Shown: one piece after another, positions 11,047 to 36,030 of the stretch
Layout: the number at the start of each line of letters is the position of its first letter
Position numbering within the stretch: the stretch's first letter is position 1
From: Campylobacterota bacterium
Lineage (GTDB): Bacteria; Campylobacterota; Campylobacteria; Campylobacterales; Sulfurovaceae
Direction of reading: 5' to 3'
DNA length: 36,276 nt
NCBI GenBank assembly: GCA_003252535.1
Contig: QKDN01000074.1
Span: 1-36,276 of the forward strand
Program-made: the position numbers and the translations under genes
Notes under the pieces: model-generated
The model's database searches: none
Told to the model about the DNA's origin: nothing
The model's input: the letters and a program-made list of their open reading frames with translations, nothing else

Positions 11047-12354
11047 TTGAGCCGATACGAAGATATTTTTGAATTTACAAAGACCAGCGACGAGTGTATC
11101 AAATGCGGGAAGTGTATCCCTGTCTGCACAATCCACCAGGTCAATCCCGACGAGGTGACCTCGCCGCGCGGGTTCATCGAGCTCCTCGGCGCCTACCAGA
11201 GGGGTCACCTGGAGCTTGACAAGACCGCCAAGGATATCTTCGAGAGCTGCTTCCTCTGTACCAACTGCGTCACTACCTGCCCCAACTCCCTCCCGACCGA
11301 TATGGTGATCGAGGAGGTGCGCGCCGATATCGCGGAGAAGTTCGGTATCGCATGGTTCAAGAAGGCGTTCTTCCTCCTCCTGCGCCACCGATGGCTGATG
11401 GATATCGCGATGAAGCTCGGCTATACCGTCCGTACCTGTGGCTTCAGCGAGGATACGAATCGTGTGGGGATGATACCGAGATTCCCTATGCCGATCATCA
11501 AGAGCGGCAGACTCCTCCCCTCGCTCGGCAAGACAAGCTTCCTCAACAAATACCCCGAGCTCATCGAACACAGCTTCAAGCCCAGGGAAAAACAGAGACG
11601 GGTCGCGATCTTCATCGGGTGTCTGGCGAACTACAACTATACCGAGATCGGTGACGCCCTCATTGAGACCCTCGCAGAGCTCGGCATCGACGCTTTCATC
11701 CCCAAAAAGCAGATGTGCTGCGCCGCACCCGCCTACTTCACGGGTGATTTCGATACGGTGGAGAAGCTGAGCAAGAAGAATATCGAGTACTTCGAGACCT
11801 TTATCGACGATGTCGAGGCGATCATCATCCCCGAAGCGACCTGCTCGGCGATGATCAAGCACGACTGGGAGGTATTCTTCGGCAACCACGAGATGCAGGA
11901 GTGGGCATACCGTGCCAGCCTCATCAACAAGAAGATATACATGGCAACCGAGTGGCTCGAAGAGAACACCGACCTCAAAGAGCGACTCGCTGCCAAAGGG
12001 AAGACCCTCGACTTCGACATCACCTACCACGACGCCTGCCACGCCAAGAAGGTCCAGGGCATCCACAAACAGCCCCGCGCCCTTCTCTCACAGAACTACA
12101 ATATCGTCGAGATGAGCGACCCCGATCGATGCTGCGGATTCGGCGGCGTGACGATGCAGACCGAGAAGTACCACTTTGCCAAGGCTGCGGGCGAACCGAA
12201 AGCCGCCATGATCCGCGACACCAGAGCCAAGGTGGTCAGCGCAGAGTGCAGCGCCTGCCGTATGCAGCTGAGCAACGCCCTCTACCAGGCGGATGTCGAT
12301 GCGGTGTTCAAGAATCCTATCGAGTTGGTGGCTGAGGCGTTGAAGGAGAAGTGA
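11047..12354 (+). CDS. GlcF/LutA/HdrD-like iron-sulfur electron-transfer protein
   Basis: A 435-residue protein with two N-terminal 4Fe-4S clusters and two C-terminal cysteine-rich CCG domains, as in the GlcF subunit of glycolate oxidase, LutA and heterodisulfide reductase HdrD. Cluster cysteines are C17-C20-C23-C27 and C68-C71-C74-C78, the last before Pro. CCG-domain features are MCCAAP (Cys224-225), YHDACHAKK, RCCGFGG (Cys362-363) and SAECSAC. It presumably passes electrons between a flavin oxidase and the quinone pool at the membrane. No GlcD-type flavin subunit lies next to it, so the partner must be elsewhere. The TTG start at 11047 follows AGAGGA at 11035-11040; no ATG is available before the first cluster. 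Confidence 0.83.
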   Translation: MSRYEDIFEFTKTSDECIKCGKCIPVCTIHQVNPDEVTSPRGFIELLGAYQRGHLELDKTAKDIFESCFLCTNCVTTCPNSLPTDMVIEEVRADIAEKFGIAWFKKAFFLLLRHRWLMDIAMKLGYTVRTCGFSEDTNRVGMIPRFPMPIIKSGRLLPSLGKTSFLNKYPELIEHSFKPREKQRRVAIFIGCLANYNYTEIGDALIETLAELGIDAFIPKKQMCCAAPAYFTGDFDTVEKLSKKNIEYFETFIDDVEAIIIPEATCSAMIKHDWEVFFGNHEMQEWAYRASLINKKIYMATEWLEENTDLKERLAAKGKTLDFDITYHDACHAKKVQGIHKQPRALLSQNYNIVEMSDPDRCCGFGGVTMQTEKYHFAKAAGEPKAAMIRDTRAKVVSAECSACRMQLSNALYQADVDAVFKNPIELVAEALKEK

Positions 12355-12393
12355 TCCTATAACCTACCAATTGTTCCTTTTATTGAAAGACTT

Positions 12394-12487
12394 GTAGGTC
12401 GGAGTGCCCTCACTCCGACATTTACTGCGCAAACAGAAATATTTCTTTATGCATGAGAATTGTCGGAGTCGGGGGACTCCGAGCTAC
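12394..12487. repeat. Inverted pair of REP-like hairpins (BIME-like), TCGGAG stems
   Basis: The first hairpin has GTAG at 12394-12397 followed by GTCGGAGTG / CACTCCGAC arms (12398-12406, 12411-12419) with loop CCCT. The second, in opposite orientation, has TCGGAGTC / GACTCCGA arms (12463-12470, 12475-12482), loop GGGG, and CTAC (GTAG on the minus strand) at 12484-12487. A GTAG before an imperfect hairpin, arranged in inverted pairs, is the hallmark of REP elements moved by RAYT enzymes. It sits between two convergent genes and could terminate both. No RAYT gene is in the window. Confidence 0.75.
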
Positions 12488-12508
12488 CAACGTGATGTAG
12501 CTTAATTG

Positions 12509-13108
12509 TTATTTTTCTATATTTTTCAGAACTCTCTCTCGAATTTTTTTCATATCATTTCGATCAAAGGCTCCATGATCCAATATCGCATTGGAAATCA
12601 ATTCCAAAAACTCTTGATATGAATTAGTGCAAATACCTAACGTATCATATTCCTGATCCAAGTACAGTATTTGACCATATTGATCTTTGATATCTTCTCT
12701 GAGGTCTAACAATATCATTTCATCACAATTCCATGAATAGATCGGTATCCAGTAGTGAGACCAAACTATATCTTTCGGATCTAGTCTTGGATCGATTTTC
12801 CCATAAGCTCCACCATCATACATATACTCTTTGTATTCATTATGAAGTTCATAGATAGTATTTATATCAAATAGTATGCCTCCGCCGCCAGTAAAGTTAC
12901 ATGAACTCTTTTGAATATCAGTTGGGTCTTTTGGATAATTGTTACACCTTCCTAAGCTTTGTTTGAACTCATTCGGAAGCTGGGGTTGCAGATATTTTTC
13001 AAGTTCTATTATCTCCTGATCTGTTGCACTGTCGCATTGGGTAAATGCTGGTTCATTCTCTTTCCAGTATGCAAAAAGATCATCCCAGATCGAATCGATA
13101 GATTTCAT
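12509..13108 (-). CDS. SUKH (SMI1/KNR4) family protein
   Basis: A 199-residue protein with the SMI1/KNR4 pattern: an early IIELEKYLQPQLPNEFK segment, a W-x-x-IPIYSWNCDEMILLDL core and GQILYLDQEYD, then SYQEFLEL near the end. Bacterial SUKH proteins often serve as immunity proteins against secreted polymorphic or contact-dependent toxins, but many are orphans of unknown role, and no toxin gene is adjacent. The ATG at 13108 is preferred because GGAGG lies 6 bp upstream; a TTG at 13120 would overlap that site. The gene is clearly more AT-rich than the flanking genes and lies between two pairs of REP-like hairpins, which suggests recent acquisition. Confidence 0.75.
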   Translation of the reverse strand: MKSIDSIWDDLFAYWKENEPAFTQCDSATDQEIIELEKYLQPQLPNEFKQSLGRCNNYPKDPTDIQKSSCNFTGGGGILFDINTIYELHNEYKEYMYDGGAYGKIDPRLDPKDIVWSHYWIPIYSWNCDEMILLDLREDIKDQYGQILYLDQEYDTLGICTNSYQEFLELISNAILDHGAFDRNDMKKIRERVLKNIEK

Positions 13109-13140
13109 ATATACCTCCAAAAGACATAAGAATTTGTATC

Positions 13141-13146
13141 ACTATA
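13141..13146 (-). promoter_or_regulatory. Possible -10 box for the SUKH gene
   Basis: On the minus strand TATAGT lies 33 bp before the SUKH start. A weak TCAACA is spaced 17 bp further upstream (13164-13169). The surrounding 13109-13196 stretch is AT-rich and holds no gene. Confidence 0.38.
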
Positions 13147-13196
13147 GCTAAATTTTTTACATTTGTTGATCGTTGTTGAATTTTATTGATTCGATA

Positions 13197-13275
13197 CAAG
13201 GGTGTTGTGCCCTCACAACACCGTAATGTCACCTATAAATGGAAATATTGGTGTTGTCGGGGGACAACACCCTAC
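13197..13275. repeat. Inverted pair of REP-like hairpins, GGTGTTGT stems
   Basis: Hairpin one has perfect 9-bp arms GGTGTTGTG (13201-13209) and CACAACACC (13214-13222) with loop CCCT; it is preceded by CAAG where GTAG is expected. Hairpin two has GGTGTTGTC (13250-13258) and GACAACACC (13263-13271) with loop GGGG, followed by CTAC at 13272-13275, i.e. GTAG on the minus strand. Loops are identical to those of the pair at 12394-12487 although the stems are unrelated. The TAG stop of the symporter gene lies inside the GTAG. Confidence 0.75.
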
Positions 13276-14798
13276 GCGTCTCTTTCTTTCCCCACCATCA
13301 TAACCCCAAACGACACCAATGTCCCCATCACCAGCTGCCATGAGAACCCCACTTTGAGGCCGCTGCCGAAGAATTCGAGCACATAACCCTGGAGGAGGAG
13401 TACGGTGAGGAATCCGCTGACGAGCGCCCATCCTACGGTGCGTTCGTTTCCTCTGCGGGTGAAGATAGCGGCGAAGTAGACGCCGAGGAGTCCGGCGTAG
13501 GCGAAGCTCATGACACCCAGCGCGAAATCGAGGAGGTGGGAGCCTGTCGCGTGCTGCCAGTAGTAGCTGAGCATCGCCATGAGGGAGAGCGAGAGGGCGA
13601 AGAGGAGCACCGCCAGACGGCCGGCGGCGAGGAAGTGCGCTTCGCCCGTATCGCCTGAGCGGGAGAGTTTCCACGGGCGGTAGAGGTCTTCGATAGCGAC
13701 CGAGCTCATGGCGCTCAGTACGGAGTTGGCGCTGGACAATGCTGCGGCGATGGCGCCGACGGTGACGAAGCCCTTGAGCCCGGCGGGCATCTCGTGGAGG
13801 ATATAGTACATCAGGATCGTGATCTTGTCTCCCTCGAAACTCTGCACCGGTTCACCCGCAATATGTGAGAGCTCGGGGTGGTGGTAGTAGAGGTAGAGGA
13901 GGAGCCCGATGACGAGGAAGAGGAACGCGACGGGAATCGTCATGATGATCGAGTAGATCAGCGATCTCGCCCCCTCTGCTGCGCTCTTGCAGGTGAGCAC
14001 CCGTTGGGTCATATCCTGGTCGAGGCCGTAGGCGGCGATATTGAGCAGCAGCCACCCGGCGATGAGGGTGTAGATATCAAAGCCGCCGTTCAGCCCTGTA
14101 AAGGTGAAGTCAAATGTCCTGAGCTTCGCATCCTCCGAGAGGATGCCCATGATCGTCGGGAGGTCTGTGTCGAGCGCGCCGTAGAGATAGACCATCAGCG
14201 CCAGAGCCGCCCCCACATAGGTCGCCGCCTGGATCACATCGCTGAAGATCACCGACTTGATCCCGCCGAAGTAGGTATATCCGAGAGCCCCAAACATCAG
14301 GATAGCGATGGAGAGTGCGATATGAGAGGGGGCGATATCCATAAAGAGGATCATCGAGATCGCCAGCGCGCCGATGTAGAGTCTCGCGCCGCTGGCAAAG
14401 AGCCGTCCGATGAGGAACATCACCCCAGCCTGCTTCTTGGCTCTCATTCCGTAGCGGTTCTCCAGGAGCTCATAGACCGTCACCGCGCCGATAGCGTAGA
14501 AGCGCGGGACGAGGATATAGGCGACGAAGATCACGGCGATGAACGCGGAGAGGTAGAATCCGAGGAAAGTGAGGTCTTTGCTGTAGGAGTATTCAGGGCC
14601 GCCGAGAAAGGTGGCGGCAGACTGCGAGGTGGCGAGCACCGAGACCGCCACGGCGAAGATTGGCATCACACCGGTGCCGACGAAGTACTCCCTGGTGCTC
14701 CGCACCTTGACACGGCTGAGGTATACCGAGGTGAGGAGGAGGACTCCGAAGTAGGAGCCGAAGATCACCCAGTCAAGCGTCTCGAAGGTGGTGTGCAT
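13272..14798 (-). CDS. Sodium:solute symporter (SSF family)
   Basis: A 508-residue integral membrane protein of the SSS/SSF family, which couples Na+ entry to uptake of sugars, amino acids, organic acids or sialic acid. Around thirteen hydrophobic helices are visible. Family hallmarks are the first-helix region (SYFGVLLLTSVYLS), R-STREYFVG, AVSVLATSQSAATFLGGP and GYTYFGGIKSVIFSDVIQA. The substrate is not predictable. It follows the M16-like gene with an 8-bp gap on the same strand, so it is probably the last gene of that unit. Its stop codon is supplied by the GTAG end of a REP-like hairpin, so the extreme C-terminus may have been reshaped by that insertion. Confidence 0.88.
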   Translation of the reverse strand: MHTTFETLDWVIFGSYFGVLLLTSVYLSRVKVRSTREYFVGTGVMPIFAVAVSVLATSQSAATFLGGPEYSYSKDLTFLGFYLSAFIAVIFVAYILVPRFYAIGAVTVYELLENRYGMRAKKQAGVMFLIGRLFASGARLYIGALAISMILFMDIAPSHIALSIAILMFGALGYTYFGGIKSVIFSDVIQAATYVGAALALMVYLYGALDTDLPTIMGILSEDAKLRTFDFTFTGLNGGFDIYTLIAGWLLLNIAAYGLDQDMTQRVLTCKSAAEGARSLIYSIIMTIPVAFLFLVIGLLLYLYYHHPELSHIAGEPVQSFEGDKITILMYYILHEMPAGLKGFVTVGAIAAALSSANSVLSAMSSVAIEDLYRPWKLSRSGDTGEAHFLAAGRLAVLLFALSLSLMAMLSYYWQHATGSHLLDFALGVMSFAYAGLLGVYFAAIFTRRGNERTVGWALVSGFLTVLLLQGYVLEFFGSGLKVGFSWQLVMGTLVSFGVMMVGKERDA

Positions 14799-36005: not shown

Positions 36006-36030
36006 GTAGGTCGGGGTACTTGACCCCGAC
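36006..36030. repeat. Single REP-like hairpin downstream of recG
   Basis: GTAG at 36006-36009 followed by arms GTCGGGGT (36010-36017) and ACCCCGAC (36023-36030), loop ACTTG. Same layout as the pairs at 12394, 13201 and 19118, but no inverted partner is seen before the window ends. It lies between the convergent ends of recG and the partial gene at 36096. Confidence 0.65.

Follow-up and report, generated by a model that had tools for sequence, protein, structure and literature searches.

Shared loops on different stems in two REPINs of a Sulfurovum-like campylobacterote: probable inheritance in a diverging RAYT lineage

Two inverted hairpin pairs with the same loops and different stems lie close together in the window, the whole 36,276-nt stretch analysed here, which is contig C24 of a 2.92 Mb genome in 77 contigs. 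They are most probably (probability about 0.9) REPINs of two related REPtrons, their stems differing because the RAYT enzymes differ and their loops agreeing because the two RAYTs concerned, L013 and L014, are close relatives. The named relatives of the RAYTs are mostly from Sulfurovum and other Campylobacterota, and the host is a Sulfurovum-like campylobacterote.

Results

Hairpins and REPINs in the window

All four hairpins of the two inverted pairs, with a CCCT loop in one member and CCCC (GGGG on the opposite strand) in the other, are present as the initial annotation described them (12394-12487 and 13197-13275), and both pairs are head-to-head REP doublets (Table 1). REPs are short palindromes tagged with GTAG or GTGG at one end. 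The outer GTAG tag that had been reported holds for three of the four hairpins, the left member of REPIN 2 carrying a decayed CAAG instead; in the right member of REPIN 1 the outermost stem base is altered, so that this base pair is lost. The stems of the two pairs had been called unrelated, which applies to the basal 6 bp (GTCGGA in REPIN 1 and GGTGTT in REPIN 2) but not to the upper stem beside the loop (GT and the closing pair), which is common to both pairs; the common apex spans 10 nt, GTGCCCTCAC in one member and GTCCCCCGAC in the other. Both arms of the hairpins have changed together, as had been noted. All six folds, of the two pairs and of single hairpins, greatly exceed those of shuffled sequences in stability (z = −4.5 to −7.0). 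Pair 1 is intergenic, between two convergent genes, and the hairpins of pair 2 likewise lie in intergenic DNA; an AT-rich SMI1/KNR4 (SUKH-1) gene stands alone between REPIN 1 and REPIN 2 (12509-13120, minus strand).

Table 1. REP features of the window (positions in the window) and RAYT-like genes of the genome with the stems of their flanking hairpins
Feature	Position or contig	Strand	Sequence
REPIN 1 left REP hairpin	12394-12419	+	GTAG-GTCGGAGTG-CCCT-CACTCCGAC
REPIN 1 spacer, 42 nt	12420-12461		
REPIN 1 right REP hairpin	12463-12487	-	GTAGC-TCGGAGTC-CCCC-GACTCCGA
REPIN 2 left REP hairpin	13197-13222 (13201-13222 without tag)	+	CAAG-GGTGTTGTG-CCCT-CACAACACC
REPIN 2 spacer, 27 nt	13223-13249		
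REPIN 2 right REP hairpin	13250-13275	-	GTAG-GGTGTTGTC-CCCC-GACAACACC
Third REPIN, another REP family of the same genome	19118-19223		stem GGTGGGCT, loops TGCC and TACT
Single REP of a further family	36006-36030	+	GTAG-GTCGGGGT-ACTTG
RAYT gene L007			flanking stem GGTGGGYT
RAYT gene L008			flanking stem GGTGCAW
RAYT gene L010 (broken by a stop)			flanking stem GGTGYGCT
RAYT gene L011			flanking stem GGTGGAW
RAYT gene L012			flanking stem GTTTGGC
RAYT gene L013	C1		flanking hairpins GGTGYTGTG/CCCT (REPIN 2 family)
RAYT gene L014	C76		flanking hairpins GTCGGAGTG/CCCT (REPIN 1 family)

Hairpins and head-to-head pairs were sampled in about 383 kb of genome stretches including the window (13% of the genome), where 54 GTAG-tagged perfect hairpins form 18 head-to-head pairs. 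Nine control heads made of the same letters gave 2-6 hairpins each and no pairs in the same 383 kb (a tenth, TAGG, was set apart because it overlaps GTAGG), confirming that the association of GTAG with hairpins is not due to chance. Pattern searches of the whole genome returned 38 matches of the GGTGYTG type and six of the GTCGGAGT type, the latter a small family with three pairs. The GTCGGRGT stem with a 5-nt loop gave 25 matches at up to two mismatches, 15 of them perfect, compared with four for the reversed-pattern control.

RAYT genes and their own stems

The search for RAYT genes that the initial annotation had proposed was carried out with PF01797 and returned ten stretches of the genome, seven of which are RAYT-like genes, each with adjacent GTAG hairpins of its own stem. 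All six proteins tested pass the NCBIfam model NF047646 (REP-associated tyrosine transposase) at 122-158 bits against a cut-off of 80, whereas the RAYT proteins tested score below the cut-off of the IS200 model; the only PDB match of the profile is the TnpAREP 4er8 (8.5e-31), and H71 and H73 of the HUH motif are invariant in the RAYT alignment. By sequence, the genes encode Y1 HUH transposases of the REP-associated class.

L013 and L014 are 66% identical and are nearest relatives among the RAYTs of the genome, L014 being 48-61% identical to the other four aligned. The 22-nt hairpin beside L014 is identical to the left member of REPIN 1. As L014 is flanked by GTCGGAGTG/CCCT hairpins and L013 by GGTGYTGTG/CCCT hairpins, REPIN 1 belongs with L014 and REPIN 2 with L013, and the connection of GTAG REPs to RAYTs that had been supposed is thus borne out by the same hairpins at the flanks of both genes. 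A repeat at the contig end truncates the L014 gene, which has lost about its last 20 residues, so that it may now be inactive; the truncation is consistent with its REPINs being few in number. This repeat, about 145 nt long and 98% identical between its two copies, interrupts two different Y1 transposase genes, L014 (1880-2026, end of C76) and L006 (1735-1876, end of C74), and is probably the end of one insertion sequence.

Stem and loop along the RAYT tree

RAYTs were present in 58 of the 175 Sulfurovaceae genomes searched. Hairpins were read around 80 non-identical RAYT loci from Sulfurovaceae and relatives, about 20 of which have no GTAG hairpins nearby; the RAYT tree comprises 77 sequences, and 60 loci with hairpins could be placed on it. 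Hairpins with GGTGTTGT mark one clade of nine RAYTs (L013, L072, L116, L131, L111, L113, L110, L107 and L115), GTCGG[AG]GT hairpins mark another (L014, L149, L136 and L146, together with L119, which has a GCTTG loop), and GGTGTAG hairpins occur beside L077, L134 and L159. Counter to this agreement of stem and tree, a lone GGTGCTGTG hairpin lies beside L137, although that RAYT falls in the GTCGG clade. RAYT pairs separated by fewer than 0.5 changes per site have the same basal stem in 81-85% of cases, compared with 3-6% for pairs separated by more than 0.8; the Mantel correlation is significant (p = 0.001) but modest (0.23), as a GGTGNN stem can be common to RAYTs that are not related. Mapped on the tree, the basal stem requires 24 changes, compared with 44.9 in shuffles (lowest value 39); for the C-rich loop class the figures are four and 16.9. 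The C-rich loop is a feature of the RAYT lineages that include L013 and L014. The apex pattern GTAGG-N5-GTGCCCTCAC was found in 46 of the 175 genomes, where the basal stems that carry it are few (mainly GGTGYT, GTCGGR and GGTGCA), and the same pattern read backwards had no match in the 175 genomes. As both stem and loop class track the RAYT tree, and the apex occurs on few stems, a shared loop on different stems is best read as inheritance in a diverging RAYT lineage.

The initial annotation had taken hairpin shape and loop to be constrained, with stem identity matched within each pair. The loop is not the fixed part, nor the stem the free one: within a single RAYT family the basal stem is nearly fixed and the loop and loop-closing pair vary. 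Between families either part changes, as illustrated by the CCCT loop on GTCGGAGT beside L014 and the GCTTG loop on GTCGG[ATG]GT beside L119. The earlier interpretation is therefore upheld in part, the factor that it missed being the RAYT paralogues, each with its own stem.

Likeness within pairs and alternative explanations

Stems tabulated by pair, as had been suggested, are more alike within pairs than between them, with a basal stem identity of 0.94 against 0.61 in the 383-kb sample (permutation p = 1e-4; copies share ancestry, and p values of the pair statistics, here and below, overstate independence). This would be expected if stems were homogenised within a pair, as had also been proposed, through gene conversion or template switching between the inverted hairpins. 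However, the excess disappears inside the GGTGYTG family of the genome, in which partners share the same stem in five of 13 pairs (7.0 expected), the other eight joining unlike stems such as GGTGCTGTG with GGTGTTGTC; the same two stems are combined in three neighbouring pairs beside L013. The loop-closing base pair, moreover, is unlike between the partners of CCC-loop pairs more often than expected, in 34 of 38 against 23.4 by re-pairing. Homogenisation was rejected on the within-family statistics and is very improbable; within-pair matching is real, but it is a family effect, the stems matching because each pair has its two ends from a single RAYT family.

A single RAYT could also serve both stems by reading only GTAG and the loop, with the basal stems left to drift through compensatory changes. 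The apex common to both pairs is in keeping with this, as is the behaviour of the group 3 TnpAREP of S. maltophilia, for which a loop base is critical and cleavage was even improved by changes at the three positions at the bottom of the stem (PMC8266576). Nevertheless, a separate flanking RAYT goes with each stem type in this genome, and related RAYTs in different genomes have basal stems that hardly vary (nine with GGTGTTGT), which free drift would not produce; we consider the single-enzyme explanation improbable, if somewhat less so than homogenisation. Least credible of all, and rejected here, is that the hairpins have nothing to do with RAYTs and act as transcription terminators or RNA elements: their intergenic position, with pair 1 between convergent genes, would suit such a role, but RAYT genes are flanked by the same hairpins, which bear GTAG tags, no terminator-like site was found in 12300-13350, and no Rfam family reached its gathering score, the two weak matches being to eukaryotic microRNA hairpin models.

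The explanation by two related REPtrons can be put as follows. Each RAYT would bind and cleave its own folded single-strand hairpins, with GTAG as the guide and the loop and stem providing specificity, and would copy the doublet whole, probably while the DNA is single-stranded during replication. Duplication of a RAYT that had a CCC-loop hairpin would have given two enzymes, the basal stem then diverging with each of them while the ancestral apex was kept, and each RAYT would maintain its own REPIN family. Points that weigh against this explanation are the truncated L014 gene with its small family, the two abundant families that lack a RAYT in this assembly, the RAYT loci without nearby GTAG hairpins, the lone hairpin at L137 and the modest Mantel correlation.

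Asymmetry at the loop-closing pair

In the 54 pairs that flank RAYTs, all families taken together, 24 of 53 comparisons show a stem difference at the loop-closing position and 0-3 of 53 at any other position, the basal four positions being matched by the way in which pairs were selected. Re-pairing within loci gave weak significance (30 against 25.1, p = 0.03). A tentative and rather unlikely explanation is that a difference between the two REPIN ends is maintained, with the basal stem acting as a family address and the closing pair (G-C in one partner and C-G or A-T in the other) as an end mark for the RAYT or as a guard against the perfect long inverted repeat that is prone to deletion.

Spacers

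The spacer of REPIN 2 belongs to a 27-nt class with members on C67 and C47 (17-19 of 27 positions identical) and, less clearly, on C2; its 18-19 of 27 identities with those on C67 and C47 were reached by none of 1000 shuffles. A 63-nt class occurs on C23, C48 and C49 and, inverted, in copies beside L013. The 42-nt spacer of REPIN 1 is equal in length to those of copies on C76 and C57, but the likeness is weak (22-23 of 42, with 5-11 of 1000 shuffles scoring as high). These related spacers at dispersed loci fit the earlier proposal that pairs are moved as units, and suggest that the pairs may have spread in this form from RAYT-flanking copies; that REPINs have moved at all is what we infer from such sequence comparisons. 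The order of the CCCT and CCCC hairpins around the related 63-nt spacers is reversed between C23 and C49 (L047 and L054), as though spacer and ends had been flipped against each other, and a fixed polarity, with a given loop type always at the same spacer end, was rejected on this observation.

Discussion

The REPINs and RAYTs reported from Pseudomonas fluorescens are among the closest known systems. The REPs of fluorescent pseudomonads and stenotrophomonads (PMC3686654) match those described here in their head-to-head doublets and GTAG tag, in that one genome holds several REP classes, with a separate RAYT for each, and in a shared apex on different stems (for example, the CTTG loop in PF1, PF3, PF7 and PF8). 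The present REPs differ in their campylobacterote host, their stems, the 9-bp perfect stem directly after GTAG and the CCCT/CCCC loops. Paralogue-specific REP classes and class changes at orthologous RAYTs have been described (PMC3686654), and the duplication and divergence of RAYT and REP proposed here would, by analogy, resemble what that study reports for REP classes and orthogroups in Pseudomonas and Stenotrophomonas. Experiments on enzymes of other bacteria have established that TnpAREP enzymes cut folded single-strand REPs, with GTAG guiding cleavage, and that in the short perfect REPs of group 3 TnpAREP one loop base is essential and stem changes are milder in effect (PMC8266576). Group 3 TnpAREP/REP systems, in which a loop base is essential and enzyme and REP have co-evolved, resemble the present ones in hairpin form, as short perfect palindromes with GTAG, although the enzymes tested come from Stenotrophomonas and Marinomonas (PMC8266576).

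GTAG REPs, REPINs, paralogue-specific stems and heterodimers are thus already published. The text of PMC3733652 describes GTAG repeats of epsilonproteobacteria including Sulfurovum sp. NBC37-1, with stems of 6-9 bp, HH dimers that are mostly separated by 20-100 bp, and heterodimers differing in stem or loop, all resembling the present repeats in description; that text does not tie loop or stem to a RAYT tree in Sulfurovaceae. What is added here is a survey of stem and loop across the RAYT tree, together with the asymmetry of the loop-closing pair, the excess of unlike closing pairs putting numbers on a heterodimer preference that PMC3733652 calls unexplained. Co-divergence of RAYT and REP explains the same loop on different stems without a new mechanism. 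Sulfurovaceae are rich in RAYT-REP duos (seven in this genome), and along a single RAYT tree the stem and the loop have each changed on their own, providing a natural data set for finding the enzyme residues that read stem versus loop.

REP classes without a RAYT, another feature of the systems in PMC3686654, also occur here. GTTCGAT-TTY-ATCGAAC is an abundant REPIN family with about 50 hairpins genome-wide (for example, L016 2407-2488), and no cognate RAYT was found in this assembly for it or for the GTCGGGGT/GCTTG family (36006-36030 in the window); with two abundant families in this position, cognate RAYTs can evidently be lost or unassembled. L119 (genome G041), a RAYT of the GTCGG clade, keeps the GTCGG[AGT]GT stem with a GCTTG-type loop in place of CCCT, and the orphan GTCGGGGT/GCTTG family is of the same type as its hairpins. 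The GTTCGAT hairpin that is an orphan here flanks the RAYT L125 in genome G165.
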